DNA from: Candidatus Peribacteraceae bacterium
GTDB lineage: Bacteria; Patescibacteriota; Gracilibacteria; Peribacterales; Peribacteraceae
Direction: 5' to 3'
Length of the DNA stretch: 37,012 bases
Assembly (NCBI GenBank): GCA_030750465.1
Contig: JASMHZ010000012.1
Span: forward strand, 1-37,012
Within the stretch, counting starts at the first letter, position 1, and every line of letters begins with the position of its first letter. Of the stretch, positions 4,709 to 30,326 are shown piece by piece. The position numbers were made by a program, and so were the translations under genes. The notes beneath the pieces were generated by a model that worked only from the letters and a program-made list of their open reading frames with translations, was not told the DNA's origin and did no database searches.

Positions 4709-4709
4709 T

Positions 4710-5219: not shown

Positions 5220-5242
5220 AAGCCAATTATATCAATTTCCAA

Positions 5243-6911: not shown

Positions 6912-6946
6912 AAATTAGAGTAGTAATAGTAATAAGTGCAACTTAC

Positions 6947-15181: not shown

Positions 15182-16849
15182 ATGACTAATACTTGTGCAA
15201 ACTGCTCTGCCGGCTTTGAAGTAACACAAGCTGACTTAGACTTTCTGGAGAAGGTATCACCAGAGATTGATGGAAAAAAGTATGTGTTTGCTCCGCCGGA
15301 TATTTGCCCGAACTGCAGACAGCTCAGAAGGATGAGTTTTAGGAATGAAAGAAAACTTTATTACAGAAAATGTGATGTAACCGGAAAAGATATTATTTCT
15401 ATTTTTTCTCCTGACTCTCCACACAAAGTTTGTGAAAAAGATTATTGGTACTCCGATGAGTTTGATCCACTGGAGTACGGGAGAGATTATGATTTTGATA
15501 AACCGTTCTTCCAGCAATTCAAAGAATTGGAAATGATGATTCCCCTTCCCTCAATCAGAGTTGAACGCTCGGAGAACTGCGACTTTAACAATGACATGCG
15601 CGACTGCAGTAACTGCTACATGTGCTCGCGAACTCACATGTCACAAAACCTTCTTTATACATACCGTGGCAACAAGTCATCAAACTCAGCGGACTGCATG
15701 CAAATTACAAAATCAGACGGTCTGTATCAGTGTGTTGAATGTGTGAACTGCAATAACTCAAAATATTTATATTTCTGCAGTGAATGCAGTGACTCCGCCT
15801 ACATGATGGACTGTAGAAATTGCATGGATTGTTTTATGTGTACGAATCTAAGGAATAAACGTTACTGCTTTTTGAATGAACAGCTTTCTAAAGATGATTT
15901 CTACAAAAAACTTGAGGAATTTGATACCGGAGCTTTATACATGGTGCATGCAGCAAACGAAATGTTTGCAGATATGAAAAAAAGGACAATTCGCAGAAGC
16001 TTAATGATTGTAAACTGCGAAAATTCAACAGGAGACAATCTTTTTGACTGCAAAGACTGCCATATGTGCTTTGGAACTCAGTTTTCTGAAGACGGTAGAT
16101 ACCTTTGGGATGTAAAGATTTATAAAGATTCAATGGATGCGTATAGCGGAGGACGCAACAGCGAGCTCATCTATTACACAACCGCAGTTGCAGCTTCATA
16201 CAATGTTCAATTTTGTTTGAGGACTTCCGAATGTCGAGATGTGATGTACTCGTTCTTTATTAATTCGTCTAAGAATATATTTGGATGCATAGGCCTTAAG
16301 CGCAATGAATACTGCATTCTTAACAAGCAATACAGTAAAGAGGAATACGAATCATTGCTTCCAAAAATAATTGAGCACATGCAAAGCACAGGTGAATTTG
16401 GCAAATTCTTTCCTCCTGAAATTGCACCGTACGCCTACAACGAAACAGTTGCACATGAATATTTCCCTCTCGAGAAAAATGATGCGATAGATAAAGGGTA
16501 TCGATGGCAAGATGAAGATAATAAAGAATCTAAGCCTCAAAGTTATAAAATTCCTGATAATATTTCCGAAATTGATGAATGGATACTGGAACAAACGCTT
16601 TCGTGTGAAAACTGCGGCAATAATTATCGTATCGTCCAGCAAGAACTAGCGTTCTACAAAAAATTCAATGTGATTATCCCAAGACATTGTGTTGACTGCA
16701 GGCACCTAGCAAGACTTGCAACAAAAAATCCACCTAATCTTAGAGAATCCAAATGTAAACAATGCAGTAAAGATGTGACGACAACTTTCCCGGAAGACAC
16801 TGAAATGCAGATCTATTGCAGAGAGTGTTATCTGGAGGATGTAACCTGA
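15182..16849 (+). CDS. Cys-rich multi-zinc-ribbon protein
   Basis: 555 aa with about 37 cysteines, mostly in CxxC pairs. The N-terminus has a treble-clef-like set (CANC residues 5-8, CPNC about 43-46), the C-terminus another (CENC about 476-479, CVDC, CKQC, CREC about 548-551). The middle has dense clusters such as CVECVNCNNSKYLYFCSEC and CRNCMDCFMC. A segment of type YCxLNxQxSKxxY occurs twice, at about 229-243 and 375-390, so the central part is duplicated. No signal peptide or membrane segment, so probably cytosolic. I know related Cys-rich proteins as common in CPR genomes, without assigned function. Metal storage, RNA binding or a scaffold are open options. Confidence 0.8.
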   Translation: MTNTCANCSAGFEVTQADLDFLEKVSPEIDGKKYVFAPPDICPNCRQLRRMSFRNERKLYYRKCDVTGKDIISIFSPDSPHKVCEKDYWYSDEFDPLEYGRDYDFDKPFFQQFKELEMMIPLPSIRVERSENCDFNNDMRDCSNCYMCSRTHMSQNLLYTYRGNKSSNSADCMQITKSDGLYQCVECVNCNNSKYLYFCSECSDSAYMMDCRNCMDCFMCTNLRNKRYCFLNEQLSKDDFYKKLEEFDTGALYMVHAANEMFADMKKRTIRRSLMIVNCENSTGDNLFDCKDCHMCFGTQFSEDGRYLWDVKIYKDSMDAYSGGRNSELIYYTTAVAASYNVQFCLRTSECRDVMYSFFINSSKNIFGCIGLKRNEYCILNKQYSKEEYESLLPKIIEHMQSTGEFGKFFPPEIAPYAYNETVAHEYFPLEKNDAIDKGYRWQDEDNKESKPQSYKIPDNISEIDEWILEQTLSCENCGNNYRIVQQELAFYKKFNVIIPRHCVDCRHLARLATKNPPNLRESKCKQCSKDVTTTFPEDTEMQIYCRECYLEDVT

Positions 16850-16858
16850 CATAAGTAT

Positions 16859-17428
16859 ATGAATACATCGTATTCCACAGAACAAAGACACAATGTTCTA
16901 ATCCGGCTTCTAAAAAACCGGAAAGGCAAGTTGCTTGATCTCGGATCAGGACACGGCAATTGGGCCGAAATAGCATATAGTAAAGGATGGGAAGTTACGG
17001 CAGTTGATGCACGCACAGAGAGATGGAGTGGAAAACCGGGAATTAAATGGATTAAGAGCGATGTAAGGGATTTTAAAATATTACCGGATGAATAGTGGCT
17101 CCTTTATCATTTGGAATTGCCTGATCAGATAGAACTAATTACTAAATGTAATCACACAGAAACGATTTTCGAAACACGTGTTGGAAAACCTGAATTATCT
17201 ATTGGAAAATATGAAGGACATCTATACCAAGAGTTTGCTGAGGATATGCCACAAGCAGAGCGTGTTAAGCACTTATTATCTGCCTGGAAAAATACTTATT
17301 CCTTCTGGCCAACCGAAGAATCGCTTGCGGCAATGCTTTTAGACTGCGGTTTTAAGTCTGCTGATAAGCTCCAGGAGCAACAGGTACCAGACGGTGAATT
17401 ACGTGTAACTTATAGAGCTGCTCCTTGA
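16859..17428 (+). pseudogene. Class I SAM methyltransferase gene broken by an in-frame amber codon
   Basis: The first half has the SAM-binding motif I (LLDLGSGHGNWAEIA, about 25-39), the acidic end of strand 2 (VTAVDART) and a motif II-like SDVRDFKILPDE. A TAG at 17093 ends it. The same frame continues with WLLYHLELPDQIEL, which is the expected post-motif segment, to a stop at 17426 after FWPTEESLAAMLLDCGFKSA. Compared with related methyltransferases about six residues (usually ..DLILCLG) are missing exactly at the TAG. The likeliest reading is a small deletion that inactivates the gene, or a sequence error. The 3' end overlaps the convergent ABC ATPase gene by 30 nt. Confidence 0.7.
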
Positions 17429-18178
17429 GTCTTTAATCACTGTATGTTCACAGTACTTGCCTGTCACATAATCCGTATTCCCTTCCAATATGATCTCTCC
17501 CCGCTCCAACCAAATAACATGATCACACATTTTTTTAATCAGATCTTCCTGGTGGGAAACCATAACAACAGTACAATCTCCTTTTACCATTTTTTCCATC
17601 TCTGCTCTGCTCTTTTCTCTAAAACTAGCATCCCCGGCAAAAAACACTTCGTCGAGCAGCATAATTTCAGGCTCCAAATGAATTGCAATAGCAAAAGCGA
17701 GACGGGCTAGCATCCCACTGGAAAATTGGTAAATCTGTACATCTACAAAATCTCTAAGTTCCGCAAATTCGACGATGCTTTCGAACTTGGTTTTAACTTC
17801 CTTTCTGGAAAGCCCAAATAAAGATCCTACCAAAAATATATTATCTCTCATTGTAAGCTTCGGCTGTAATCCGACTTGTAAATTAATTAGAGGAACCACT
17901 CTGCCTTTGACTTGAACGTCACCTGATGTTTGAGGATAGATTCCTGCAAGTATCCTTAGAAGGGTGCTTTTACCAGAGCCGTTTCGCCCAACTATTCCCA
18001 ATACCTCTCCATCACCCACACTAAATGAAATGTTTTTAAGTGCTGTGAACTTGCGCGGAAGCCTGAGGTGTTCCCTGAATTTGATTAAACGTGTAAGTGC
18101 TGTTTCTTCTCCACGCAATGTGAATATTTTTGACAAATCTCTGACGGTGATGACATCAGTATCAAACATATTCAGCAA
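17399..18178 (-). CDS. ABC transporter ATPase, Wzt-type polysaccharide exporter
   Basis: 259 aa. Walker A GRNGSGKST (about 64-72), signature FSSGM (about 152-156, a common variant in polysaccharide exporters), Walker B IMLLDE (about 172-177) and the switch His in VSHQ (about 209). RKFTALKNISFSVGDGEV is typical of the TagH/Wzt/KpsT branch. It lacks the C-terminal carbohydrate-recognition domain of O9a-type Wzt, so export is probably not gated by a capped chain end. It overlaps the permease gene by 17 nt; an alternative ATG at 18169 would overlap by 8. Confidence 0.93.
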   Translation of the reverse strand: MLNMFDTDVITVRDLSKIFTLRGEETALTRLIKFREHLRLPRKFTALKNISFSVGDGEVLGIVGRNGSGKSTLLRILAGIYPQTSGDVQVKGRVVPLINLQVGLQPKLTMRDNIFLVGSLFGLSRKEVKTKFESIVEFAELRDFVDVQIYQFSSGMLARLAFAIAIHLEPEIMLLDEVFFAGDASFREKSRAEMEKMVKGDCTVVMVSHQEDLIKKMCDHVIWLERGEIILEGNTDYVTGKYCEHTVIKDSRSSSISYT

Positions 18179-18911
18179 AATGAGGATAAAGTTTCCAGAA
18201 AATCAGGATACCAATAAACAACGATCCAAACGAGAAAGCAACAAGTATCAACAAAGATTTTGGATCGGGAGCTGAGCTGTATATTAAAGCATCTCGTGAG
18301 ATATCCAGAATATGAAACATTGGATTAAACATACTTACTTTCTCACCTCTTCCTCCTTCATACAATGCATAGAAAATCGGAGTTGCAAACCACCAGACCT
18401 TTGTGAGGATGGACCAGATTTGACCCAAATCGCGAAAAACAAATATCAGTGCAGAAAGTGCGTAGCTCACACCAAGTGTAAAAATGAAGTTAAGAACTAG
18501 CACAATCGGAAAAAATATAATCGTAAATGTAATAACCCCAAAATACGCCGCAATCAAAAAGAAAATTACAATTTCGAACAGATGAGATATTAGAACATCC
18601 AAGACAGTCGATATTACTAGAAGTTCTCTCCTGACCGGTAAGGACTTGATTAAACCTGCCTGACCAAAAACACAGGTAAGTGATCGTGATGTACTAGTAC
18701 TGAAGAAGTTCCATATTATGATTCCCGACAAAAGGTAGAGTGGGTAATGATCCACGTTTTCCCCTAGCCTATGCGAAAAAACAAGCAGTAGGATTATGAA
18801 AGTAAATATTGGCCCAAGTAGATACCAAAGAATCCCCAGGCAACTCCCAGCATTGCGAATTTTAAAGCTTGCTTTCGTAGTCTGATATAGGATATTAATG
18901 CCCTGTTTCAT
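18162..18911 (-). CDS. ABC transporter permease, Wzm-type
   Basis: 249 aa, six predicted membrane segments, the ABC-2 type polysaccharide-export permease. Conserved points are the amphipathic N-terminus followed by GILWYLLGPIFTFIILLLVF, YLLSGIIIWNFFSTS and the C-terminal FYALYEGGRGEKVSMFNPMF loop and membrane helix. Together with the ATPase it would move a lipid-linked glycan across the membrane. Its ATG lies only 6 bp from the ATG of the divergent glycosyltransferase. Confidence 0.93.
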   Translation of the reverse strand: MKQGINILYQTTKASFKIRNAGSCLGILWYLLGPIFTFIILLLVFSHRLGENVDHYPLYLLSGIIIWNFFSTSTSRSLTCVFGQAGLIKSLPVRRELLVISTVLDVLISHLFEIVIFFLIAAYFGVITFTIIFFPIVLVLNFIFTLGVSYALSALIFVFRDLGQIWSILTKVWWFATPIFYALYEGGRGEKVSMFNPMFHILDISRDALIYSSAPDPKSLLILVAFSFGSLFIGILIFWKLYPHFAEYV

Positions 18912-18917
18912 ATCTAT

Positions 18918-19865
18918 ATGTTACACCAAAGAATGCATCTTCCCGGCAAATTGGCTGTACTTACAACACACTTCAATTCAGTTGGATATGAAAGAACACG
19001 AAATAATTACAAAGTATTTGCCGAGAACGTTAAAAGGCAGGGAGCGGATTTGTGGGCAGTCGAAATTGTATTCGGGAATGATAATTTTTTTCTTCCCAAA
19101 AATGAAAAAACCATTCAAATACAAACATCTGATATTTTGTGGCAAAAAGAAGCAGCACTTAATGTTCTGATTAAAAACCTGCCCAAAGAATATGACAAGA
19201 TCGTCTGGGTAGATGCTGATCTAATTTTTAATAATAACAATTGGCTAAGCGAGACCGCATCGAAACTCGAAGAATATCCTGTGGTTCAATGCTTCGAAAC
19301 TCTTCTTAGTCTGAGCCAAGAAGGCAACAATTATTCAAGGGTAAAAACATCAATTGGATTTGCGGTAAAAAATTCTCTTCCATGTTTTAGCAACTTGTTC
19401 TATTACCAACCTGGATGCGCCTGGGCGGGACGAAGAGAAATTTTTGAAAAATATGAATTGTATTCTGGTCACATAACAGGTGGTGGAGATTCTCTTATGA
19501 CCATAGCCTTTTGCAAATGGAAAAAGCACCATTACATCAGAAATAATATGGGTGAATCCATGGCTATTCATTTCAACAAATGGGCAAACCGTATTTATCC
19601 CGTTGTGCGAGGAAATATATCCTACGTGAGCGGCTCCATTAATCACTTGTGGCATGGTGAATACGCTAATCGTATGTACGATCAGAGAATTCAAATATTA
19701 AAAGACAACGATTTTGATCCCGAAGTTGACATCGCAATCGGGAGCAATGGATTATTGCAATGGGCTACGGATAAACCAGTACTTCATCACGAGGTGAAGA
19801 AATACTTTTGGAATAGGCAAGAGGAGGGCATTTCAAATACTCCTGAGCTTGTTCATACCACTTAG
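18918..19865 (+). CDS. GT-A-like glycosyltransferase, paralogue 1
   Basis: 315 aa, about half identical by eye with the gene at 24538. KLAVLTTHFNSVGY forms a first beta strand; WVDADLIF holds a DAD metal motif at 99-101, at the same residue numbers as in the paralogue. PGCAWAGRREIFE and the closing HLWHGEYANRMYDQR (His and Trp about 234-236) are the conserved acceptor or metal elements shared by both. I recognise the fold class from these motifs but not a CAZy family. The ATG at 18918 gives a 6-bp gap to the divergent wzm; ATG 18933 is an alternative. The last 101 nt overlap a convergent sulfotransferase. Confidence 0.7.
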   Translation: MLHQRMHLPGKLAVLTTHFNSVGYERTRNNYKVFAENVKRQGADLWAVEIVFGNDNFFLPKNEKTIQIQTSDILWQKEAALNVLIKNLPKEYDKIVWVDADLIFNNNNWLSETASKLEEYPVVQCFETLLSLSQEGNNYSRVKTSIGFAVKNSLPCFSNLFYYQPGCAWAGRREIFEKYELYSGHITGGGDSLMTIAFCKWKKHHYIRNNMGESMAIHFNKWANRIYPVVRGNISYVSGSINHLWHGEYANRMYDQRIQILKDNDFDPEVDIAIGSNGLLQWATDKPVLHHEVKKYFWNRQEEGISNTPELVHTT

Positions 19866-20691
19866 TTGCATAACTACCGAATCTTTCGTGCAAAAGCCTC
19901 AAGTCATCAATGTACATTTCTGATAGGAATTTCCTGATTTTCTCCGGCATTTCAATTCCAGGTCCAGACATAATAACTTGGCGAGATAAAGCATGAATAT
20001 ATTTTGCATCTTCTCTGATTCCAAGAAACTTAAAGATTGACACCAACAAATCATCCGGATTCAAAGCAATATTCTCAAAATAATCTATAAAAATTCTTTC
20101 CTTAGGAAAAACTTGCATCCATCTATCTAAGTTTTGAATATGAGCACCAAGAGAACGTTGATAGGATCCTTCCAGATATGACATAAGTTCATCTTCGTCC
20201 GAGAGATTGACTGACTTACCCCAGACTTTAAACATTGTAAATACAGATGACCATGCGCGATCAACAGGATTTCTGAGTAGATAAATTATTTTTAAATCAG
20301 GCATAAGATCTTTTATATGTCTGATAGTTTCAACCTTAAGAGATGCATACTCAGGCGTTCCTTCGCCGGCAATTTGATTATTCTTTGGCCTGAATCTGGA
20401 TGAATACCATTCATCATTCATTCTCCCAAAAAGACATCTGTACTTTTTGCGAATACTTTTATATTTAAAACCAAGTTTAGAATGTAATTTTAAAAAATAC
20501 CTCCATCTCCAATTTCTTTTGTCAAAAATTCTTCCAAAAAGCGAAGTTGGAATTCCCTCCTCCATAATATTGAAATAATGCAATTCTTTAATTGTCGGCA
20601 TGTGAACTTGTGGATGTTGTCTTAGGTTTACGCTAAGCCAAGTGGTACCGGACTTTTGGGCGCCGATTATGAGGAAGTTGGGATATGGCAA
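19765..20691 (-). CDS. PAPS-dependent sulfotransferase 1 (TTG start)
   Basis: 308 aa from the TTG at 20691, which encodes MPYPNFLIIGAQ, the same N-terminus as the two paralogues. The 5'-phosphosulfate loop is GAQKSGTTWL (about 10-19), and the 3'-phosphate motif is RNPVDRAWSSV (about 141-151). It should transfer sulfate from PAPS to a carbohydrate hydroxyl or amine. The frame is open 44 codons more, but that extension is not conserved. The C-terminal FGSYATKW matches the paralogues. It is convergent and overlaps glycosyltransferase 1 by 101 nt. Sequence differs more from paralogues 2 and 3 than these from each other. Confidence 0.85.
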   Translation of the reverse strand: MPYPNFLIIGAQKSGTTWLSVNLRQHPQVHMPTIKELHYFNIMEEGIPTSLFGRIFDKRNWRWRYFLKLHSKLGFKYKSIRKKYRCLFGRMNDEWYSSRFRPKNNQIAGEGTPEYASLKVETIRHIKDLMPDLKIIYLLRNPVDRAWSSVFTMFKVWGKSVNLSDEDELMSYLEGSYQRSLGAHIQNLDRWMQVFPKERIFIDYFENIALNPDDLLVSIFKFLGIREDAKYIHALSRQVIMSGPGIEMPEKIRKFLSEMYIDDLRLLHERFGSYATKWYEQAQEYLKCPPLAYSKSISSPRDEVLVYP

Positions 20692-20744
20692 GAGAAACAG
20701 GTGTATGCTACATAGAATATGTGGAATATAGAATAAATAAACGA

Positions 20745-20750
20745 TATGCT
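20745..20750 (+). promoter_or_regulatory. Candidate -10 element of lysS (leaderless)
   Basis: TATGCT lies 6 nt before the ATG at 20757, so a transcript starting at the normal distance would be leaderless. No Shine-Dalgarno sequence is present. The preceding gtggaatata (20721-20730) recurs upstream of two other plus-strand genes. Confidence 0.35.
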
Positions 20751-20756
20751 TTACAT

Positions 20757-22853
20757 ATGGATGAATTCCGTCTGAAAAAGGCACAACAAATCCGTGACGA
20801 AGGAGGTCAGCCTTACATGGCAAACTTCAAACGGACAAAAATGCTTGCTGATGCAAAACAGCTTAAAAAGGGAAAATCGTGCTTCATAGCCGGAAAAGTG
20901 ATGTTGTTCAGACAAATGGGAAAAATGACCTTTGCGACTCTTCAAGATTATACGGGAAGAATGCAGATTGCATTCAAAGAGGACGAAGTCGGAGAAAAGG
21001 AGTATGAGCGCGCTGTCTCCCTGATTGACTTGGGAGACGTTGTTGGCATTAAGGGCGAATATTTTGAAACAAAGAAGGGTGAACCAACAATAATGGTCAA
21101 AAAATGGTCGCTTCTGACAAAAGCCTTGCGCCCGCCTCCGGAAAAGTGGCACGGAATTGCGAATCAGGAAACAGCGTGGAGGCAAAGGTATCTGGATTTG
21201 ATGAGCAACCGCGAAACGATGGAGCGCTTTGTATTCAGAAGTCTGTTTATTAAGAAATTAAGAGAATTTTATTGGAAGAATGATTTTATCGAAGTTGAAA
21301 CTCCAACGCTGACAAATACTGCTTCGGGTGCGTTGGCCACTCCATTCGTAACCCATCATAAAGCTTACGACATGGATGTGTTTTTGAGGATTGCAGCCGG
21401 AGAAACTTTTCAGAAGGAATGCTTGGTCGGAGGTTTTGACAAGACATTCGAAGTTGCAAGATGTTTCCGAAACGAAGGATTGGATCCTTCCCATCTGCAG
21501 GACTTTACGATGGTCGAACACTACTCGGCGTATTGGGATTATGAGGATAATATGAAGTTCACGGAAAAAATGCTTTCAACTCTGGTCAAAGATTTAATGG
21601 ATTCAACAAAAATCAAAATTCCTGACCGGGACGGAAAGTTGGTTGAAGTGGATTTCAAACCACCCTGGCCACGAGTTAGCATTGCAGAAGTAATCAAGCG
21701 TGATTGTGGCATTGATATCAACTCGACTAAGACTGCTGACGAGCTCAGGTCAGCTATTAAGAACAAAAAGATAAGACTTGAAGTTGATATTGAATCGCTT
21801 GGCCTTGGCAACTTGATTGATCAGTTATACAAGAAGGTCAGCCGTCCAAAGATTAATCAACCGACATTCCTTACTAATCATCCTGTTGAGCTGTCTCCAC
21901 TATCCAGAAGGAATGACGAAAATCCGGATGTAACTGATAGATTCCAGCTTGTGGTATGCGGGTGGGAAATTGTGAATGCTTATTCAGAGATTGTTGATCC
22001 GGTTGATCAGGCCAACAGATTCGAAATGCAAAGTACGGCTAAAGATGAAGGTGATAGCGAGGCGCATGGAAAAGATGATGAATTTGTTAAAGCCCTTGAA
22101 TATGGTTGCCCCCCTTGCTCAGGACTCGGAATGGGAATTGATAGAATTGTTGCTTTGCTCACTCAGCAGACAAATATTAGAGAGGTAGTACTGTTCCCTC
22201 TTATGAAACCTGAAGTTGAAGATTCTGACAAAATCCCTGCAAAGAAACCATCGAAAGATGATAAGAAATTACTACAACATGCGCAGTACGGTCACTTGCT
22301 TCCTGCTGCACATGGGCTACTGGAGGAACATGCAGATAAAATTAAGGAGCACTTGATTGCAACAGGTGCTGTGATGGAAGTGTTCGCAAAAAAATTCGGA
22401 GGCGATCCTGATACGTGGAGAGTTGCCGGCATGCTTCATGATCTGGACTGGGATCATCTGGAAAAAGATATGGAGGAGCACTGCGGGCAGACTTTGGATG
22501 AGCTTATTGGTGAGATTGAGAATAAAGATGAGCTAATGGCTGACATTCGATCGCACTATGCCGAGAAATACGGAGGTGAACATCCGCTTGAGTCGAAACT
22601 GAGGCAAACTCTTTACTGTGTTGATGAACTGACCGGATTTATCATCGCCGTAACACTCGTCAGACCAAGCAAAAAGCTGGAAGATGTAAAAGTAAAAAGT
22701 GTAACCAAGAAATTGAAAGACAAAGCTTTTGCCGCCCAAGTAGATCGCACGCAGATAAGGAAATGCGAGGAGCTACTGGAGATTGAACTAAATGAGTTTG
22801 TTGAAATTACTCTGAATGCGATGAAGGAGATTGCTGGTGAGATTGGGCTTTGA
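20757..22853 (+). CDS. lysS: Lysyl-tRNA synthetase (class II) fused to a C-terminal HD domain
   Basis: 698 aa from the ATG at 20757 (MDEFRLKKAQQIRDEGGQPY); the frame is open 24 codons earlier but runs into the divergent gene. The N-terminal OB-fold anticodon domain is at about 30-140 (RQMGKMTFATLQDYTGRMQI). Class II motif 2 is FRNEGLDPSHLQDFTMVEHY, and motif 3 is GLGMGIDRIVALL, ending at about 485. A linker leads to an HD phosphohydrolase-like domain (about 507-698) with HLLPAAHGLLEEHA, then AGMLHDLDWDHL (HD about 560-561) and YCVDELTGFI as the final metal Asp. LysS normally ends after motif 3, at about 500 residues. The added domain may hydrolyse a nucleotide, perhaps an alarmone, which is inference. 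Confidence 0.93.
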   Translation: MDEFRLKKAQQIRDEGGQPYMANFKRTKMLADAKQLKKGKSCFIAGKVMLFRQMGKMTFATLQDYTGRMQIAFKEDEVGEKEYERAVSLIDLGDVVGIKGEYFETKKGEPTIMVKKWSLLTKALRPPPEKWHGIANQETAWRQRYLDLMSNRETMERFVFRSLFIKKLREFYWKNDFIEVETPTLTNTASGALATPFVTHHKAYDMDVFLRIAAGETFQKECLVGGFDKTFEVARCFRNEGLDPSHLQDFTMVEHYSAYWDYEDNMKFTEKMLSTLVKDLMDSTKIKIPDRDGKLVEVDFKPPWPRVSIAEVIKRDCGIDINSTKTADELRSAIKNKKIRLEVDIESLGLGNLIDQLYKKVSRPKINQPTFLTNHPVELSPLSRRNDENPDVTDRFQLVVCGWEIVNAYSEIVDPVDQANRFEMQSTAKDEGDSEAHGKDDEFVKALEYGCPPCSGLGMGIDRIVALLTQQTNIREVVLFPLMKPEVEDSDKIPAKKPSKDDKKLLQHAQYGHLLPAAHGLLEEHADKIKEHLIATGAVMEVFAKKFGGDPDTWRVAGMLHDLDWDHLEKDMEEHCGQTLDELIGEIENKDELMADIRSHYAEKYGGEHPLESKLRQTLYCVDELTGFIIAVTLVRPSKKLEDVKVKSVTKKLKDKAFAAQVDRTQIRKCEELLEIELNEFVEITLNAMKEIAGEIGL

Positions 22854-23520
22854 TGAAATATACCTGGGATTTATTATCCGTATAATCTTCGCATGGAGGA
22901 ATGACGATAAATTCTTCCGGTTTGTCTGCAAAGAATTTTTCGACTGCCGGTGCAATCCCCGCAAGCCGAGGATGATTGTAGTCATCAACAATCACAACAG
23001 CACCAGGACTTAATCGGGGATAAATTGACTCGAGCGCGTGCAAAGTAGGCTTATAAAAATCAACATCTATGTAAGCAAAAGCAATTTTTTCCGGAAGTTC
23101 CTTCGGCATTGTATTTTCAATCCATCCTTGATGAATAATCGGCAATTCACCACCAATCATATTCCTAAAAACACATTTATATTTCCCTTTTTTAACAGCA
23201 AGATCGCCTTCGCTCAGCATATTATCTTCACCATCTTCTACAGAAGGAGAAGGCATACCTTTAAAAGAGTCGTAAACGTGAAATTCTTTTTTGCAATTTA
23301 AATGTCTCATCACGCGTGCAATAAACGCGGACGTGTGTCCTTCAGCCACTCCAACTTCCAGAATGGCTCCGGATACTTTTCGCTTAATAACCTGACGAAG
23401 AAGCCTGAAAAAAACGCGTCTTTGATTTTTTCCCATCCACAAAAAATGGTTCGGCATAACTTCCAGATACATCCTAGGAGATCTGGCGATTCTCTTGATA
23501 ATTACATTTTTACCAATCAT
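22807..23520 (-). CDS. TylF/MycF-like O-methyltransferase
   Basis: 237 aa. The SAM motif is ILEVGVAEGHTSAFIARVM (about 52-70), followed by FHVYDSFKGMPSP, which is the TylF-family hallmark. AYIDVDFYKPTLHALESIY and VVIVDDYNHPRLAG hold the metal-binding acidic residues. TylF-type enzymes methylate sugar hydroxyls, so it could methylate the locus glycan. It follows the GT64-like gene by 13 nt in the same direction and overlaps the 3' end of lysS by 47 nt. Confidence 0.88.
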   Translation of the reverse strand: MIGKNVIIKRIARSPRMYLEVMPNHFLWMGKNQRRVFFRLLRQVIKRKVSGAILEVGVAEGHTSAFIARVMRHLNCKKEFHVYDSFKGMPSPSVEDGEDNMLSEGDLAVKKGKYKCVFRNMIGGELPIIHQGWIENTMPKELPEKIAFAYIDVDFYKPTLHALESIYPRLSPGAVVIVDDYNHPRLAGIAPAVEKFFADKPEEFIVIPPCEDYTDNKSQVYFIKAQSHQQSPSSHSE

Positions 23521-23533
23521 TAGAGTTGTAAGT

Positions 23534-24514
23534 TTATACTAACATTGGCTCAAGTGCAGTACCGCGTAGATTATTTTTTAACTCATCGTAATTTTTAATA
23601 ATATCGCTAAGGCATGGGCTATTCAGAGCCTCTTCGTCTTCATAATACGCCTTTTTGAAGCTCTGCCCGCTATCAAATAGTTTCTTTTGCGTATTACCTA
23701 TTATACTTCCTACCTTCTCCGCATGCCTTAGAAGCTCTTCCGATTCAATCTTTACGGGCACCCCTGTTTTTCCCGCTTTATCCAGGATATATTTTCTGAT
23801 TGGATTTTTGTGCACACGAAAGATTTTAACAGAATTAGTTTTAGCTCCCAGTTTTTCTTTGTGGATAACTTTCCCAAGAATTTTCGAAACTCTTCTCTCC
23901 GCTTCTTCGGCATCTGTCCAAAAATTTTCACCTATCCACAAAGCTTCCAATCCATTCTTCCCTATTAACTGCTCAGCATTCACTTCAATCGTATTATGTA
24001 TTTGGTCTCTAAGAAGCGGAAATATCCAGTCCGCATGTTTACAAAGTAAATAATCTTCTCCAAACATATTCACATACGATTCCAGAACTTGAATCCATTC
24101 CTTTTTAAAGAATGCTCCATATCCCATATAAGCCACTTGTGCAGACCCGCGATAAAATTTTTCTTTACCCTTAAAGTGTTTACTAATAAGTCCGTGAGTT
24201 ATCTTCGAAGAATCTGAGCAAAATGCTTCGTAAAGTATATTTATATCCGAAGCAATCCAGTCATCATCTTGCGTGTATATCACATCATTTTTCGCCTGCT
24301 TAGCGCATAAATATCTTCCGTAGCCACCAATATTGCTCTCGCTTTGAATAACTCTGACATTATCCCCATCAACCGAAAGCGAAACTGAATTATTATTCCA
24401 AATGATAATTTCATCTATAAATGGCATCATTTGCAAATGATCGACAATCCGTTGCATATTGTACGGACGCTGCCAGGATAGCAGGCAAGCCGATGCTTTG
24501 ATCTGTGCTACCAT
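23534..24514 (-). CDS. EXT/GT64-like glycosyltransferase
   Basis: 326 aa. The order of features follows the GT64 catalytic domain of exostosin-like enzymes: an early strand (ASACLLSWQRPYN), then MPFIDEIIIWNNN, a DDD metal motif in VIYTQDDDWIAS (about 97-101) and YMGYGAFFKKEWI, then HADWIFPLL. There is no signal peptide or membrane anchor, so it acts in the cytosol. The C-terminal ~100 residues are not recognised. The start (24514) is 23 bp from the divergent glycosyltransferase 2. The GT64 assignment is by motif order only, and a distant GT2 is the alternative. Confidence 0.65.
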   Translation of the reverse strand: MVAQIKASACLLSWQRPYNMQRIVDHLQMMPFIDEIIIWNNNSVSLSVDGDNVRVIQSESNIGGYGRYLCAKQAKNDVIYTQDDDWIASDINILYEAFCSDSSKITHGLISKHFKGKEKFYRGSAQVAYMGYGAFFKKEWIQVLESYVNMFGEDYLLCKHADWIFPLLRDQIHNTIEVNAEQLIGKNGLEALWIGENFWTDAEEAERRVSKILGKVIHKEKLGAKTNSVKIFRVHKNPIRKYILDKAGKTGVPVKIESEELLRHAEKVGSIIGNTQKKLFDSGQSFKKAYYEDEEALNSPCLSDIIKNYDELKNNLRGTALEPMLV

Positions 24515-24537
24515 TTAACCAAGCTTAGTTTTGTATT

Positions 24538-25518
24538 ATGCACCTATTTAGTCAACAACTACCGGGAAAACTAGCAATAGTTACAACATACTTTAACTTC
24601 GCCGGATACTCCACATTGCTTAACAATTACAAAATATTCGCGGATGAGATCCGTTCGCAGGGTCTTGACCTCTGGACTGTAGAAATTGCCTTCGGAGATA
24701 AAGAGTTTGATTTGAACAAAGACAATCGAACATTACAAATCCGAACTGAGGATGTAATGTGGCATAAAGAACGCGCATTGAATGTTTTAATTAAAACTCT
24801 GCCAAAAGAATACGACACAATCGCGTGGCTTGACGCAGATGTTATCTTCGAAAACCGCAAATGGGCAGAGGAAGCCAGCGAGTTACTGAAACACTGCAAA
24901 ATAATACAATGCTTCAGCAATGTGCATTGCTATCAAGAAGGTAATATGGATTTAACAAAGAATACTCATATCGGATACTCACTTAAAAAGAATAACCTAA
25001 ACAAATATTCTACAGAAACTTCGCATCCGGGATTTGCCTGGGCAGGAAGAAGAGATTTTTTGGAGCGTCACATGTTATATGACTCTCATGTACTCGGAGC
25101 CAATGACTTTTTGATGGCGCTCGCATTTTATGGAAATTTCAAACACGCTTACGCTCAGGAAAACCTGAATGGTCCGCTCAGAAATGATTATTTGAAATGG
25201 GCAAAAAAAGTATTTGTTGAGATAAACAAAAACGTTGGCTTCATTGAAGGAGACATTTATCACCTTTGGCATGGAAAAATAGCAAATCGCCAGTATTTAA
25301 AGCGCGATGCATATATATTCGATTACAATTTTGACCCGGAAAAAGACATTAAAATTGGAAAAAATGGTTTGTATCACTGGTCGTCAAACAAACCGCGTAT
25401 GCATCAAGCAGTACAACAGTACTTTGCGGACCGTAATGATGATGGCGACTCGTCCTCCGACAGAGCACTGTGCTTTCTTAGAAATTCTGTTTCTTCTTCC
25501 AGCCATTTGGTCGCGTAG
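24538..25518 (+). CDS. GT-A-like glycosyltransferase, paralogue 2
   Basis: 326 aa, paralogue of the gene at 18918. Matching segments: KLAIVTTYFNFAGY, LDLWTVEIAFGD, NVLIKTLPKEYDTIAWLDAD (DAD at 99-101), PGFAWAGRRDFLE and HLWHGKIANRQYLKRDAYIF. The C-terminal part after the conserved HWSSNKPRMHQAVQQYF lies within the 115-nt overlap with sulfotransferase 2 and so is probably unconstrained. No signal peptide. No Shine-Dalgarno in the 23-bp gap to the divergent gene, so a leaderless or internal promoter is likely. Confidence 0.7.
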   Translation: MHLFSQQLPGKLAIVTTYFNFAGYSTLLNNYKIFADEIRSQGLDLWTVEIAFGDKEFDLNKDNRTLQIRTEDVMWHKERALNVLIKTLPKEYDTIAWLDADVIFENRKWAEEASELLKHCKIIQCFSNVHCYQEGNMDLTKNTHIGYSLKKNNLNKYSTETSHPGFAWAGRRDFLERHMLYDSHVLGANDFLMALAFYGNFKHAYAQENLNGPLRNDYLKWAKKVFVEINKNVGFIEGDIYHLWHGKIANRQYLKRDAYIFDYNFDPEKDIKIGKNGLYHWSSNKPRMHQAVQQYFADRNDDGDSSSDRALCFLRNSVSSSSHLVA

Positions 25519-26348
25519 CCTCCAAACCGCCCATGGAGTCTCTGCAAAATTCCATATGTTTTTTGCGCCAATATCACCCTTATATCATCAGGAATAATTA
25601 ATTTGGGACCACTATTAATAACTTTTTGTGCAACCGCATAGGCATTATCTTGAGTATGTTCAACACCCAGAAAATCAAATGTCTTGCGCAAGAACTCCTC
25701 CGGACAATCTTTAATCTCATCATAAAACCCTATTAATATGTTCTCCTTAGGAAACAGGTTTTCCCAATTGGACAAATGCATAAGATAATCTGATTTTCTA
25801 AGACGATCACTGCAATCACATAATTTCTTCAATTCTATATGGGGAACATCATTGAATTTATTATTGAGTACTTTAAAACTCACAAATTTAACCATTGACC
25901 ATATTTGCTCAACAGGATTTCTCATTAGGAAAATGATTTTACAATCCGGCATCAATTTGTGAATTCTTTCAACGTGTTCATAATCCAAGCAATAATAAGA
26001 AGGTGTAACCTCTCCTGATATCTGATCATTGGTGGGACAAAAAAGAGATGAATACCATTTGTCCGACCTGAATCCGAAAAAATATCTTATCATCCATTTC
26101 ATTCTTTTTATATCTTTATAATTATTCGATATGTACAACTGTTTTTTTAATTGCCTTTTCCATGTCCCGGCTTTACTGCTAAATAAACGTCCAATAAAAC
26201 CATTAGGAATACTGTCGGCTTGATTATCGAAATAATTAATCTCTTTTATATATGGCAATGAAATCTGGTTATGCCTCTTTAAATTCCAATGAAACCAAGT
26301 GGTTCCGCACTTATTTGCGCCAATGCAGAGAAAATCAGGATACGGCAC
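25404..26348 (-). CDS. PAPS-dependent sulfotransferase 2 (GTG start)
   Basis: 314 aa from a GTG (MPYPDFLCIGANKCGTTWF). The 5'-phosphosulfate loop is GANKCGTTWF (about 9-18) and the 3'-phosphate site is RNPVEQIWSMV (about 143-153). The C-terminus GGYATKWLEEETEFLRKH is shared with paralogue 3. It overlaps the end of paralogue 3 by 14 nt, so both are probably in one transcript, and overlaps glycosyltransferase 2 by 115 nt at the other end. Confidence 0.88.
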   Translation of the reverse strand: MPYPDFLCIGANKCGTTWFHWNLKRHNQISLPYIKEINYFDNQADSIPNGFIGRLFSSKAGTWKRQLKKQLYISNNYKDIKRMKWMIRYFFGFRSDKWYSSLFCPTNDQISGEVTPSYYCLDYEHVERIHKLMPDCKIIFLMRNPVEQIWSMVKFVSFKVLNNKFNDVPHIELKKLCDCSDRLRKSDYLMHLSNWENLFPKENILIGFYDEIKDCPEEFLRKTFDFLGVEHTQDNAYAVAQKVINSGPKLIIPDDIRVILAQKTYGILQRLHGRFGGYATKWLEEETEFLRKHSALSEDESPSSLRSAKYCCTA

Positions 26349-27279
26349 AGATATTATTGGAAGTTTTTTGAATATTTAAATCACACTCGGGAAGCGCTCC
26401 GTGCTTTTCAAGAAATTCCGTTTCCTCCTCAAGCCATTTGGTTGCATAGCCCCCAAAACGCTCATGAAGCCCTTTTAAAATGTCGTAGGTTTTCAGTCCA
26501 AGTAATACCCTGATGTTATCAGGAATCTCGTATTCTGGACCTTTATTAATAATTTTTCTGACTATCGGATAAATATGATCTTCGGACTTCTCGACCTCAA
26601 GAAAATCAAATATTCTTAATAACAATTGATCTGGGCAATCCCTTATTTCATCATAGAAACCTAAGAATATATTTTCTTTTGGGAAAAACTTTTCCCAATT
26701 GGCCAAATGAAATAGATAATCTGTATTATGAATCCTGTAATTATCAACACACATCTCCTTAATCTGATCCAACGAAATATCTTCAAATTCTTTTTTTTGA
26801 ATTTTAAAATTCATAAACTTAACCATGGACCAAATTTGCTCAACAGGATTCCTTACTAAATAAATGATTTTGCATTCAGGCATCATCTTGTGAATTCGCT
26901 CCACATGCATGCAGGGCAAGCAGTAATATCCAGGGGAATGCTCTCCTGCAACCTGACCTGTATCAGGATTAAAAAGCGACGCATACCACTTATCGTTTCT
27001 TGTCCTTAGTGCATAATTGAGAAGCCACTTAGCCCTTTGCATATTTTTTAAAGTAACTTTCTTAAATATTTGTCTTTTTAGGGACCTTCTCCAATAACCA
27101 ACTCTCTTGTGGAAAAGACGTCTGATAAAATCATTTGGCAAACCATGCGACTGGCCATCAAAATAATGAATTTCTTTTATATATGGCACAACAATCTGCT
27201 TGTGTCGCCGCAAATTGGCATGCAACCAGCTTGTACCGCATTTTGGCGCGCCTATGCAAAGAAAATCAGGATATGGGAT
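26335..27279 (-). CDS. PAPS-dependent sulfotransferase 3 (no standard start codon; ATC proposed)
   Basis: The frame codes IPYPDFLCIGAPKCGTSWLH, colinear with paralogue 2. The only codon at the conserved start is ATC (27277-27279). No ATG, GTG or TTG lies between it and the upstream in-frame TAG. Starting at ATC gives 314 aa, the same as paralogue 2; starting at the first TTG (27225) would remove the phosphosulfate loop. The 3'-phosphate site RNPVEQIWSMV and the GGYATKWLEEETEFLEKH end are intact. So either an unusual start, a recent ATG-to-ATC change that silences it, or a sequence error. It is the first gene of a pair with paralogue 2. Confidence 0.75.
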   Translation of the reverse strand: MPYPDFLCIGAPKCGTSWLHANLRRHKQIVVPYIKEIHYFDGQSHGLPNDFIRRLFHKRVGYWRRSLKRQIFKKVTLKNMQRAKWLLNYALRTRNDKWYASLFNPDTGQVAGEHSPGYYCLPCMHVERIHKMMPECKIIYLVRNPVEQIWSMVKFMNFKIQKKEFEDISLDQIKEMCVDNYRIHNTDYLFHLANWEKFFPKENIFLGFYDEIRDCPDQLLLRIFDFLEVEKSEDHIYPIVRKIINKGPEYEIPDNIRVLLGLKTYDILKGLHERFGGYATKWLEEETEFLEKHGALPECDLNIQKTSNNICAVS

Positions 27280-27334
27280 AAAAAATGGTTGATGTAGTAT
27301 ATATTGTTGACATCCTAAGCTAGACTAGCCCCCC

Positions 27335-28972
27335 ATGGAAGAGCATTCGTCATCAGCGGAAAAATTGCAGCAGATAATCGCAGAGAAAGAGGTTCTCATT
27401 CAAAGAATTATCAAATCTAAAAGCTGGAAATGGACCAAGTGGTTTAGAATTTTGGAAGCCAAATTATTTCGTACTCTTGGCAAAACTCAGCGTGTCACAG
27501 TACCAAGTGCAACCGTACAGACTATAGACCCTTGCTCAAATACAGCGGTCATAATTACCTGCCACAATTATGGCAAATTCTTGCAGGAATGCGTAGAAAG
27601 CGTATTCCAACAGACGTTTCTACCTGCAGAAATACTTATTGTTGACGACGCATCAACCGATGATACCGCGAAAGTCGCAGATCTGTACCGTCATCAAGGT
27701 GTTGAATACATTCGATGTAATCATCGACATCCCTCCGGAGCCAGAAATGAAGGAGCAAAGAATACCGTGTCTCAATTACTCCTTTTCCTGGATGCAGATG
27801 ATGTACTTGCCCCTGACTACATAGAAAAATGTCGTGAATGCATGGTGGACCCTTCGGTTGCTATTGCGTACACAGATATCAAGTTCTTTGGTAACGATGA
27901 TAATATTTTTGGAGCGCCTGAGTTTGATCGTGAAGCATTAATGAAACGAAATTACATCTCATCACATGCACTTATTCGCAGACAAGTATTTGATATGGTG
28001 GGCGGATACAGGATTACACCAAACACCCCAAATGAAGACTGGGATCTGTACAGAAGAATGCTTAAATTTAAATGGAAGGCTAAGAAAGCGAAAACAACAG
28101 TCCGGCAACGAAAACACAAAAATAATCGATTGCCCACATTTGATAAGGCAAAATTGAAGTATTGGCAAACTGCACGCCTGATGCATAACCCAATAACAAT
28201 TTTCACACCATTCGCGGGACGCAGAGAAGTGCTGGACAAATATATTGATGCCCTTAAGAATCTTGATTTTGATCATTCTCTGATTCGTCTCCACTGTTTC
28301 GACACAAGCAACAATGAGGAATTCGCAAATCTACTTAAAATGAAGCTATCTTTATTAGATTTCGGAAGAATAACTTATACCTCTGCTCCACTTCCTAAAT
28401 CCTGGAGCCACTCACCACAAAGTTTGATACATAATCGCGTAAAAAGCCTAACTGTTCAGTACTATCATGATATGGCTTTAGTTTATGCATATAATCATAT
28501 GATAGTTTCATGTGATACTGAATTTATTCTTGTAGTTGAGGATGATATTGCACTTTCTCCCAATTCTCTAAAAATGCTGATTGAGACAATTGAAAGATCA
28601 GAGACTGTTGCAGTTGTTGCTTCCTATCCATGCCATCTACAAGGATATCAAACCGTATGGAAACTTGGAAAAGATGATTACCCAAGCCATCCGGCCAGAA
28701 AAAGCAGTGGTATAGAAAAGGTGGATGGAGCCGGGTTTGGTTGTTCGATGATAAGAGCATCTGCTTTTGAATCTTTCCCATTCTATACCCGCAGCTACGA
28801 AAAACCCCCACATTGGTATGACTACAATGCTTTTGCGCATTTGAGAATGAAGGGTGATGTTCTATGTAACTGGGACGTAGAAGTAGACCATATGAAAACT
28901 AATCGCTCACCGTTATCCCCAAAGAAGTCTTTCCCAGGAAAAAAAGAACCCAAGCATGCAGAAATTCATTAA
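27335..28972 (+). CDS. Two-domain glycosyltransferase (GT2 plus second GT-A-like domain)
   Basis: 545 aa. A short N-terminal coiled coil (about 7-40) is followed by a GT2 domain (about 70-270): VIITCHNYGKFLQECVESVF, LIVDDASTDDT and LFLDADDV (DAD). The second domain (about 288-530) begins PITIFTPFAGRREVLDKYID and has ILVVEDDIALSP (EDD metal motif) with a later HWYDYNAFAHLRMKGDVLCN. Together they may add two sugars alternately. The gene overlaps the next one by 17 nt. No signal peptide. Confidence 0.82.
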   Translation: MEEHSSSAEKLQQIIAEKEVLIQRIIKSKSWKWTKWFRILEAKLFRTLGKTQRVTVPSATVQTIDPCSNTAVIITCHNYGKFLQECVESVFQQTFLPAEILIVDDASTDDTAKVADLYRHQGVEYIRCNHRHPSGARNEGAKNTVSQLLLFLDADDVLAPDYIEKCRECMVDPSVAIAYTDIKFFGNDDNIFGAPEFDREALMKRNYISSHALIRRQVFDMVGGYRITPNTPNEDWDLYRRMLKFKWKAKKAKTTVRQRKHKNNRLPTFDKAKLKYWQTARLMHNPITIFTPFAGRREVLDKYIDALKNLDFDHSLIRLHCFDTSNNEEFANLLKMKLSLLDFGRITYTSAPLPKSWSHSPQSLIHNRVKSLTVQYYHDMALVYAYNHMIVSCDTEFILVVEDDIALSPNSLKMLIETIERSETVAVVASYPCHLQGYQTVWKLGKDDYPSHPARKSSGIEKVDGAGFGCSMIRASAFESFPFYTRSYEKPPHWYDYNAFAHLRMKGDVLCNWDVEVDHMKTNRSPLSPKKSFPGKKEPKHAEIH

Positions 28973-30326
28973 CACCATACGCTGGCATCTTCCATATAAA
29001 CTATTTGGTTTTATTAAGAAACACTGGATTAAAGCGGATAAACCGTGCGAACGATTTGTGCTATTTGTCCGCCATAGATTACTTGGAACTCTATGGCCCG
29101 CGGAAACTATTTTTTGTCCCGACAGCCGTTTCATTCAACCAAAAGCTTTCTTATCGGACTTAAGTGTTGCAGTAATCATTCCATGTCACAATTACGCACA
29201 TTTTCTTCCTGAAGCAATAGAAAGTGTTCTTAATCAAACATTTAAACCAACTGAAATTCTGATCGTGGATGATGACTCAGATGATAATACTGCCGAGATA
29301 GCATCAACGTTCTCGGATAGAGGAGTGAGATACATAAAATGCAATCATAGAAATCTAGCCAAAGCCAGAAATGAAGGAGCAGAGAATACAAGCAGTGCCT
29401 TTCTCCTTTTCTTGGATGCTGATGACATTCTGCCGTCGCATTACATAAAACGATGTTTGAAACAAATGCAGGATCCTTCTGTTGCAATCGTTTACGGAAA
29501 CATGAAGCACTTTGAAAATGAAAGATTTATCTGGAGGACATCCGAATTCAAACTTGATCGTATTGAGCGTACGAACTTTATATCTTCCCATGCTCTAATA
29601 AGACGAAAAGCTTTTGATATGGTTGATGGATACAAAACAATTCCTGATTCTATTGCAGAAGATTGGGATTTTTACCGACGTGTTTTAAGGCTTAGATGGA
29701 AAGCAAAAAAGGCACGAACATATGTTAAATATCGAGTGCATGATAAAAGTATGACTAACACATCAACAAGGCGAAGATATATGGATGATGCATCCCTTAA
29801 GATTCAACCTTTGACTATTTTTACAATCTTTTCCGGAGATCATAAAAAATTAGATTCATATATACATCAATTAAAAACTGTTAACATCAACAAAGACCAT
29901 TCTCGCATTATTTTTGTTGATACAAGTGGAGATAAATCTTTTGAAACAAGATTAAAAGATGAGCTATCTAAACTGAAGTCAAAAAAGACCACCTATACTC
30001 GCCTCTATACAATTAAGAAAAGTTCAAGAAAACTTAATGAATTACGTGCAATAAGTGTACTAATTAATTCTTGCGACACAGAACTTATTTTTATGGTTGG
30101 CGAAGATACGACCTACGAATCTGATATTGCAGAAAAGCTGTTTGAAAAAATGGATAGCAATGTTTCCGCAGTACTTTCTGACAATAATATAAACCTCTGT
30201 CTGCTTCGACTTAGCGCGCTTAAAAATGTTCATCCTGGCGAAGACATTTTGGAGCAACTCAAAAGGAGAGGGCATGTTAAAAAATTGGATATAACACGTC
30301 ACAAGTCACAAGCCACGAAGAAGTAA
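28956..30326 (+). CDS. Two-domain glycosyltransferase, degenerate paralogue
   Basis: 456 aa, tandem paralogue of the gene before it. The GT2 domain is intact (VIIPCHNYAHFLPEAIESVL, LIVDDDSDDNT, LFLDADDI). The second domain (PLTIFTIFSGDHKKLDSYIH onward) is shorter by about 75 residues, and the EDD motif is replaced by MVGEDTTYES; the later conserved Trp/Tyr segment is missing. The second active site is therefore probably inactive or altered. It overlaps the upstream gene by 17 nt, so cotranscribed. Confidence 0.8.
   Translation: MQKFINTIRWHLPYKLFGFIKKHWIKADKPCERFVLFVRHRLLGTLWPAETIFCPDSRFIQPKAFLSDLSVAVIIPCHNYAHFLPEAIESVLNQTFKPTEILIVDDDSDDNTAEIASTFSDRGVRYIKCNHRNLAKARNEGAENTSSAFLLFLDADDILPSHYIKRCLKQMQDPSVAIVYGNMKHFENERFIWRTSEFKLDRIERTNFISSHALIRRKAFDMVDGYKTIPDSIAEDWDFYRRVLRLRWKAKKARTYVKYRVHDKSMTNTSTRRRYMDDASLKIQPLTIFTIFSGDHKKLDSYIHQLKTVNINKDHSRIIFVDTSGDKSFETRLKDELSKLKSKKTTYTRLYTIKKSSRKLNELRAISVLINSCDTELIFMVGEDTTYESDIAEKLFEKMDSNVSAVLSDNNINLCLLRLSALKNVHPGEDILEQLKRRGHVKKLDITRHKSQATKK

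Follow-up and report, generated by a model that had tools for sequence, protein, structure and literature searches.

The Candidatus Peribacteraceae genome analysed here (GenBank assembly GCA_030750465.1) is small, yet it carries a real gene set for a surface sugar that is best read as sulfated. The sulfate-activation step, for which the genome has neither Sat nor CysDN, appears to be done by a previously undescribed small enzyme encoded elsewhere in the same genome. The window, that is the whole stretch of DNA analysed, consists of 37,012 nt (contig JASMHZ010000012.1, positions 1 to 37,012). A first-pass annotation of the window had described a Wzm/Wzt exporter, at least five glycosyltransferase genes, three PAPS sulfotransferases and sugar-type methyltransferases, with an O-acetylation pair nearby, and had left open where PAPS comes from. 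We examined these genes by profile searches, and the features are given in Table 1. The observation stands, with a correction to the O-acetylation pair, which is a single MBOAT gene split by a frameshift plus an unassigned protein.

Table 1 Features of the glycan locus and of the candidate PAPS pair. Coordinates are those of the window except where contig C61 of the same genome is named. G200 denotes a congener; percentages are protein identities to its orthologues.
Position	Strand	Assignment	Basis
17399-18178	-	Wzt-type ABC-2 polysaccharide exporter ATPase (short form, no room for a C-terminal carbohydrate-binding domain)	PF00005 1.6e-24; best NCBIfam NF050108 (galactan ABC exporter) 4.6e-56, below its equivalog cut-off; 74% in G200
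18162-18911	-	Wzm-type exporter permease	PF01061 2.5e-10; NF050109 3.2e-16, below its equivalog cut-off; 82% in G200
18918-19865	+	Divergent GT2-like glycosyltransferase (gtA), 3' end overlaps ST1	PF00535 3.8e-4, below cut-off; 72% in G200
19765-20691	-	Sulfotransferase ST1 (listed ORF starts at 20823; true start probably near 20691)	PF13469 9e-20; QKSGTTW / RNPVDRAWS; PDB relatives HS 3-OST, NDST; 76% in G200
20685-22853	+	Lysine-tRNA ligase (housekeeping; landmark of the locus)	PF00152 4.5e-80; G200 orthologue passes the lysS cut-off
22807-23520	-	TylF-type O-methyltransferase	PF05711 5.5e-24; 91% in G200
23534-24514	-	Divergent glycosyltransferase (gtB)	PF00535 0.0015, below cut-off; 77% in G200
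24538-25518	+	Divergent GT2-like glycosyltransferase (gtC), paralogue of gtA, 3' end overlaps ST2	PF00535 0.0093, below cut-off; 46% to the G200 gtA orthologue, 72% to its own orthologue
25404-26348	-	Sulfotransferase ST2	PF00685 2e-14; NKCGTTW / RNPVEQIWS
26335-27279	-	Sulfotransferase ST3, tandem paralogue of ST2 (listed ORF starts at 27225; domain begins further upstream)	PF00685 4e-13, whole domain 1.4e-16; PKCGTSW / RNPVEQIWS; PDB HS 3-OST-1
27335-28972	+	Glycosyltransferase gtD, GT2, two matched stretches	PF00535 4.3e-39
28956-30326	+	Glycosyltransferase gtE, GT2	PF00535 2.7e-37
30377-31015	-	Methyltransferase	PF13578 4e-15
31047-32459	-	RNase J-like beta-CASP hydrolase (housekeeping; landmark of the locus)	PF10996 6.5e-42; 94% in G200
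32521-33892	+	MBOAT (DltB-like) O-acyltransferase, frame broken near 33450 (ORFs 32521-33534 and 33452-33892)	PF03062 2.5e-29; TIGR04091 4.6e-42, below cut-off
33778-35052	+	Protein of unassigned family downstream of the MBOAT gene, possible partner	No Pfam match; position only
C61:1927-2304	+	125-aa HxGH nucleotidyltransferase (NT), candidate sulfate adenylyltransferase	HxGH fold and ISxTxxR motif; no match to PF01747
C61:2301-2831	+	Short-lid APS kinase, start codon overlaps the NT stop	PF01583 1.2e-25, 90.7 against a cut-off of 21.1 bits

Damage to the PAPS sites had been named in advance as something that would count against the annotation. We inspected the three sulfotransferases in sequence, and each has an intact 5'-phosphosulfate loop followed by an intact 3'-phosphate motif; structural modelling of these proteins was not done. 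They are the only Sulfotransfer_3 matches in the genome, and their nearest solved relatives include heparan-sulfate 3-O- and N-sulfotransferases, although PAPS-dependent transfer to a glycan was not assayed. Of the five glycosyltransferases two are firm and three match GT2 only below the curated cut-off. The exporter pair is of the polysaccharide-export ABC-2 type, and both methyltransferases are confirmed. The cluster is not chance, since its order is conserved in G200 with 60-95% protein identity. The lysine-tRNA ligase lies inside the cluster and the RNase J beside it.

The interpretation in the first-pass annotation, a locus for an exported sulfated glycan in a CPR bacterium, is supported and, with methylation added, is the best reading. 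The CPR assignment is supported by close relatives that are Ca. Peribacteria/Peregrinibacteria. The existence of the polymer, its sulfation and a functional O-acetylation were not shown, the MBOAT gene being frameshifted in this assembly. The annotation saw no sulfate activation gene and held that PAPS must come from elsewhere in the genome or from a host. The lack of any route to PAPS, together with the absence of sulfate on surface material, had likewise been set out beforehand as a ground for rejection. We found that a likely route is present on contig C61, where an APS kinase overlaps the end of the NT gene, and a host supply is thus not needed.

In order to assess the relationship between NT and sulfate activation, we searched 44 genomes of the family for APS kinase, NT, CysD and Sat. 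The 23 genomes with an APS kinase each have exactly one of NT (17), CysD (4) or Sat (2), with no overlap and none left over, and the other 21 have none of the three (Fisher 5e-13, exclusivity 1e-5, neither corrected for kinship). A weak APS-kinase match in genome G164 is a zeta-toxin-like P-loop protein and not an APS kinase. In a kinase tree, the kinases of four relatives, G269 (CysD+CysN), G263 and G275 (Sat) and G104 (kinase fused to the C-terminus of CysN), fall inside the NT-paired clade (support 100/99). CysD, CysN and the G263 Sat pass curated cut-offs, while the G275 Sat was identified by PF01747. Within the genus of the present organism, G269 keeps the order kinase-GT4-epimerase, but NT is absent upstream of the kinase and CysD+CysN are on another contig. 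Although the present assembly is only 82% complete, so that a real ATP sulfurylase could lie in the missing part with NT in an accessory role, sixteen further NT genomes of 92-100% completeness also lack Sat and CysD, and we consider this explanation very unlikely.

NT and kinase genes overlap or lie within 3 nt of each other in 15 of 17 family loci. Outside the family, NT is coupled to APS-kinase-like genes in Microgenomates, SAR11, Reyranella and phages. The two are fused in Daviesbacteria, Roizmanbacteria, Woesebacteria and genome G525 with NT first, and in Reyranella with the kinase first; one natural fusion has about 260 residues. An automatic count of kinase adjacency gave 64 of 76, which is a lower bound because masking caused some fused proteins to be missed (loci L139, L142 and L158 are fused by direct reading).

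We then examined the link to sulfation. PF03567 alone missed most of the small KTGG-type sulfotransferases, and a custom profile was used to find them. A sulfotransferase lies within 10 kb of the kinase in 16 of 23 genomes, and one is found anywhere in 21 of the 23 kinase genomes against 1 of the 21 without. In three relatives (G196, G208 and G147) NT-kinase, sulfotransferase and Wzm/Wzt share the lysS-RNase J locus, and a SAR11 operon reads kinase-NT-pyruvate kinase-like-sulfotransferase. Not all genomes follow this pattern, as G115 and G258 have NT-kinase but no sulfotransferase that we detected, and G200 has sulfotransferases but no detected PAPS genes in a 95% complete assembly. In most phage contigs with a kinase-NT fusion no recognisable sulfotransferase was found within the flanks retrieved, so the family may have other substrates there. 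A test for CysQ (PAP phosphatase) did not discriminate, since PF00459 occurs in kinase-positive and kinase-negative genomes alike, and no weight was given to it. CPR cells depend on partners for many metabolites, and in this genome the pair lies on another contig than the sulfotransferases. However, given the shared locus in the three relatives and the strong link between kinase and sulfotransferase presence, uptake of PAPS from a host with NT and kinase unrelated to the glycan locus would seem a remote possibility.

The NT protein itself resembles NMN adenylyltransferases. A first structure model built with 17 close sequences was poor in the motif region (pLDDT 73.8) and was replaced by a 54-sequence model (pLDDT 86.7), which matches NMN adenylyltransferases. 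Profile and fold searches found NMNAT and CoaD as nearest, not Sat, and glycerol-3-phosphate cytidylyltransferase, of similar size, matches weakly. These matches leave room for an NMN or nicotinate mononucleotide adenylyltransferase, or a small cytidylyltransferase such as TagD for a wall polymer, that merely sits beside the APS kinase while sulfate is activated by something undetected. We consider this unlikely. The motifs GRFQPFHxGH, GRxVG[Y/W] and IS[AG]TxxR are invariant or nearly so, the second being private to NT, and 0 of 76 motif-positive sequences keep the Trp pattern that is found in 95% of the 76 motif-negative ones. In addition, NT is absent from relatives without APS kinase and from the congener G269, unlike a housekeeping enzyme, and it is repeatedly fused to APS kinase in both orders.

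The kinase has the P-loop, the DGD and the conserved central motifs. The whole clade, including the copy fused to CysN, lacks the KGLYxKA part of the canonical APS-kinase lid, and the kinase scores 100 bits with TIGR00455 against a cut-off of 138.7. This shortened lid is compatible with another possibility, namely that NT and the kinase make a different 3'-phosphonucleotide-activated group, which the sulfotransferase-fold enzymes transfer instead of sulfate. A cytidine diphosphoramidate kinase is known from Campylobacter jejuni (Taylor and Raushel 2018, cited in PMC10919079), where phosphoramidate decorates the capsule. That enzyme is of the APS-kinase fold. A nucleotidyltransferase plus APSK-like kinase pair of another type also occurs in the class (genome G274, locus L016). 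However, this reading, although the least improbable of the alternatives, is unlikely, as it explains neither why the same kinase clade works with CysDN or Sat in four relatives, nor the linkage to sulfotransferases, nor the absence of NT whenever a known ATP sulfurylase is present.

Our preferred explanation, held with fairly high confidence, is that the window encodes synthesis and Wzm/Wzt export of a methylated glycan that three PAPS-dependent sulfotransferases sulfate, probably in the cytoplasm, with PAPS made inside the cell in two steps. In this view NT adenylylates sulfate with ATP to give APS and pyrophosphate, and the kinase phosphorylates APS at the 3' position. NT would be an undescribed family of ATP sulfurylase, probably derived from an NMN-adenylyltransferase-like ancestor that lost the nicotinamide-side segment. 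The genes, their order, the intact motifs, the mutually exclusive replacement of NT by CysDN or Sat and the physical linkage to sulfotransferases come directly from the sequences, whereas the substrates, the order of steps and the sulfated surface polymer as product are our inference. No enzyme activity is known for any NT, and APS formation, which was not measured here, is supported only indirectly by the slot replacement.

We consider it likely, though somewhat less so, that NT is a third, independently evolved family of sulfate adenylyltransferase after Sat and CysDN, spread over Patescibacteria, SAR11, other Alphaproteobacteria and phages, so that many genomes counted as unable to activate sulfate can in fact make PAPS for sulfation. 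Only two enzyme types are generally recognised for making APS, the entry of sulfate into biology. A third, very small one would change genome-based statements about who can activate sulfate, here for CPR bacteria, SAR11 and phages. It would also explain how cells with 1-Mb genomes decorate their surface with sulfate, and could be a compact tool for PAPS supply in making sulfated polysaccharides. We found no description of it in the open-access literature searched, which did not cover most subscription papers or any preprints, and searches for a NadM-like ATP sulfurylase or for sulfotransferases in Peregrinibacteria returned nothing. The Peribacteria genome paper does not mention sulfate or PAPS in its main text.

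Compared with known systems, Sat occupies the same slot before APS kinase, belongs to the same HxGH nucleotidyltransferase superfamily and presumably catalyses the same reaction. However, Sat has about 400 aa, and NT is closer to NMN adenylyltransferases; the only PF01747 match to an NT was a sub-threshold one (7e-4) in a SAR11 NT. CysD/CysN also takes the same slot, being present instead of NT in G269 and G104, but it has an unrelated fold (PP-loop plus EF-Tu-like GTPase), two subunits and GTP coupling. As no Sat or CysD/CysN model matches in the present genome and NT itself does not match, we do not file NT as a member of either family, only as working like them. NadM-type NMN adenylyltransferases share the fold and the HxGH and ISxTxxR motifs and are the best structural match, whereas NT lacks their Trp-containing segment, is about 40 residues shorter, has its private motif and is coupled to a kinase. 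In PAPS synthetases (PAPSS1/2, CysNC, Sat-APSK fusions) an adenylyltransferase is likewise fused or coupled to APS kinase, but the adenylyltransferase half is a different family here. The Campylobacter cytidine diphosphoramidate pathway also pairs a nucleotidyltransferase with an APSK-like kinase for a capsule decoration; its nucleotidyltransferase is of another family, and it does not use sulfotransferases or swap with ATP sulfurylases. The phage proteins of phrog_10255 ('kinase') are fused kinase-NT proteins with the same NT motif, of unknown function and mostly without a nearby sulfotransferase. Finally, gene clusters for sulfated capsular polysaccharides are found in other bacteria, for example Vibrio KMM 8419 (PMC11641403) and Cobetia (PMC11766843), whereas here the cluster belongs to a reduced CPR genome with a new candidate sulfate-activation route.

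First, in order to assess whether the glycan locus is as the first-pass annotation had described it, with a Wzm/Wzt exporter, at least five glycosyltransferases, three PAPS sulfotransferases and methyltransferases, we examined each gene in turn, and the stretch does contain what was described. The three sulfotransferases match Sulfotransfer_1/3 well above cut-off and are closest among solved structures to a bacterial sulfotransferase and to heparan-sulfate 3-O-/N-sulfotransferases. Broken PAPS sites on structural modelling had been named beforehand as grounds for rejecting the reading; both PAPS motifs were found intact in all three sequences, whereas structural modelling of the sulfotransferases was not done. 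No other Sulfotransfer_3 gene was found in the genome. Wzm and Wzt are adjacent. Two glycosyltransferases are unambiguous, whereas three are divergent GT2-like proteins below the curated cut-off, and two methyltransferases are confirmed. The MBOAT gene just outside the stretch is broken in this assembly by a frameshift, either from sequencing error or from decay. A lysine-tRNA ligase and an RNase J lie within or next to the set as landmarks. The same order is present on two contigs of the congener G200, where one sulfotransferase stands in place of the tandem ST2-ST3 sulfotransferases, so ST2/ST3 look like a recent duplication. In addition, the gtA/ST1 and gtC/ST2 glycosyltransferase-sulfotransferase genes are paralogous convergent pairs whose 3' ends overlap by about 100-115 nt, an arrangement kept in G200 (loci L085 and L086), and it looks like a duplicated glycosyltransferase-sulfotransferase module. 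Coordinates of these and the other features can be seen in the table below.

Coordinates of features in the window and in loci (L) of other genomes.
Sequence	Coordinates	Feature
Window	17399-30326	stretch described in the first-pass annotation
Window	3557-4708	SLH-domain protein
Window	15182-16849	555-aa cysteine-rich, zinc-ribbon-like protein of unknown function next to the glycan locus, 89% identical in G200
Window	18918-20691	gtA/ST1 convergent pair
Window	24538-26348	gtC/ST2 convergent pair
Window	32521-33892	MBOAT gene, frameshift near 33450
Window	36224-36655	SLH-domain protein
L081 (G075)	6739-7002	second, truncated NT copy (87 aa) upstream of the intact NT-kinase pair
L139 (Daviesbacteria)	3619-5649	sulfatase domain fused to a PAPS-reductase/CysD-like domain
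L326	8294-9736	pyruvate kinase gene directly following the NT-kinase pair
L141	8333-9370	pyruvate kinase gene directly following the NT-kinase pair
L140		pyruvate kinase gene directly following the NT-kinase pair
L144		pyruvate kinase gene directly following the NT-kinase pair

The window is contig C3 of a 1.0 Mb assembly that is 82% complete, and its SLH-domain proteins point to an S-layer. We then searched the genome for a route to PAPS, the absence of which, together with an absence of sulfate on surface material, had also been named in advance as counting against the reading. The genome has no PF01747 ATP sulfurylase and no CysD, but it has an APS kinase on another contig, C61. Immediately upstream of the kinase, and overlapping it by 4 nt, is a 125-aa HxGH nucleotidyltransferase (NT), next to a divergent GT4 glycosyltransferase and a nucleotide-sugar epimerase gene. 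Close relatives of this NT occur in Candidatus Peribacteria/Peregrinibacteria.

In a sample of 288 genomes of the class, the full-length NT was found in 17 genomes, all of them in the window's own family and all with the kinase next to it. We then compared 44 genomes of that family. Twenty-three have a real APS kinase, while a 24th, weak match is a zeta-toxin-like protein. Of the 23, seventeen have NT, four have CysD (G104, G168, G269 and G284) and two have Sat (G263 and G275). No genome has two of these, no kinase genome has none, and none of the 21 kinase-free genomes has any (Fisher 5e-13; the chance of no overlap among 23 is 1e-5). Although kinship inflates such figures, both solutions occur within single genera: genus g1 contains NT (G000, the genome of the window, and G254) and CysDN (G269), and genus g13 contains NT (G093 and G247) and CysDN (G104). 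A possible case of both lies in the Daviesbacteria locus L139, where a sulfatase domain is fused to a PAPS-reductase/CysD-like domain a few genes away from the fused NT-APS kinase; if that domain is a CysD, this genome would carry both NT and a CysD-like protein, although CysN was not looked for there.

A maximum-likelihood tree of the kinases groups all family kinases except the two canonical CysNC fusions at 100/99. The CysDN- and Sat-associated kinases of G269, G263, G275 and G104 lie inside this group, and the fused NT-kinases of Microgenomates and of genome G525 lie just outside it. Hence NT is probably ancestral to this kinase clade and was replaced several times by known ATP sulfurylases. 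In G104 the same short-lid kinase, which in the whole clade lacks part of the canonical lid, is the C-terminal domain of CysN, preceded by CysD and followed by a sulfotransferase. In G269 the kinase-GT4-epimerase order of our genome is kept, but NT is absent and CysD plus CysN lie on another contig.

In order to assess the relationship of the kinase to sulfation, we searched the 44 genomes for sulfotransferases of two types, Sulfotransfer_1/3 and a small HIPKTGG type related to Sulfotransfer_2. These occur in 21 of 23 kinase genomes and in 1 of 21 others, and they lie within 10 kb of the kinase in 16 of 23. However, two kinase genomes (G115 and G258) have no sulfotransferase that we could detect, and G200 has sulfotransferases but no detected PAPS genes in a 95% complete assembly. 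In G196, G208 and G147 the chromosomal stretch between lysS and RNase J, the counterpart of this window's locus, holds sulfotransferase, Wzt and Wzm, with NT and kinase within or right beside it. Outside the family, a SAR11 contig reads kinase-NT-pyruvate-kinase-like-sulfotransferase. The pyruvate kinase gene that directly follows the NT-kinase pair in unrelated lineages is full length in genome G403 and of a truncated form in SAR11, and its role is unexplained. Reyranella has a PF13469 sulfotransferase within about 4 kb of its kinase-NT fusion, and G525 has sulfotransferases near its fusion. One viral contig, L244, has NT, a kinase and a sulfotransferase in a row, and the viral locus L266 also carries a sulfotransferase.

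We next compared the NT sequences themselves. Fifty-four sequences from Patescibacteria, SAR11, Reyranella and viral contigs share GRFQPFHxGH, NP, GRxVG[Y/W] and IS[AG]TxxR with few exceptions. In a survey of 152 superfamily loci, 76 had the GRx.G[Y/W] motif; none of these had the Trp pattern of NMN adenylyltransferases, and at least 64 had a P-loop kinase fused or adjacent. Of the 76 without the motif, 95% had the Trp pattern and one had a kinase beside it. A tree separates the two groups by one branch with moderate support (85/83). Kinase and NT are fused in either order in different lineages.

The genes, motifs and distribution described so far were read from sequence, whereas what follows on mechanism is inference, as no activity was measured here. 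In this view, loss of the nicotinamide-side segment would leave an adenylyltransferase with a small anionic acceptor site; sulfate is the acceptor that explains the replacement by Sat and CysDN, and the kinase would pull the unfavourable reaction by consuming APS. The PAPS would feed ST1-ST3, which probably act on glycan chains in the cytoplasm before Wzm/Wzt export, although which sugars and positions are sulfated is not known. The finding of the first-pass annotation is real, and its interpretation as a locus for an exported sulfated glycan is supported. The more interesting result is a candidate new ATP-sulfurylase family, which, with literature coverage limited to open-access full texts, we consider likely.

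With respect to known systems, the predicted structure of NT (pLDDT 86.7, pTM 0.78) is closest to NMN adenylyltransferases. Phage versions belong to phrog_10255, annotated as 'kinase' and of unknown function. Many phage contigs (viral loci L235-L312, and phages DLP_6 and Bhz60 at L315 and L316) encode the kinase-NT fusion; what phages use it for is not known, and the phage members may act on other substrates. An APS-kinase-like gene of genome G274 (locus L016) directly follows an NTP_transferase-type nucleotidyltransferase, an arrangement that resembles the Campylobacter phosphoramidate pair and is different from the NT family.
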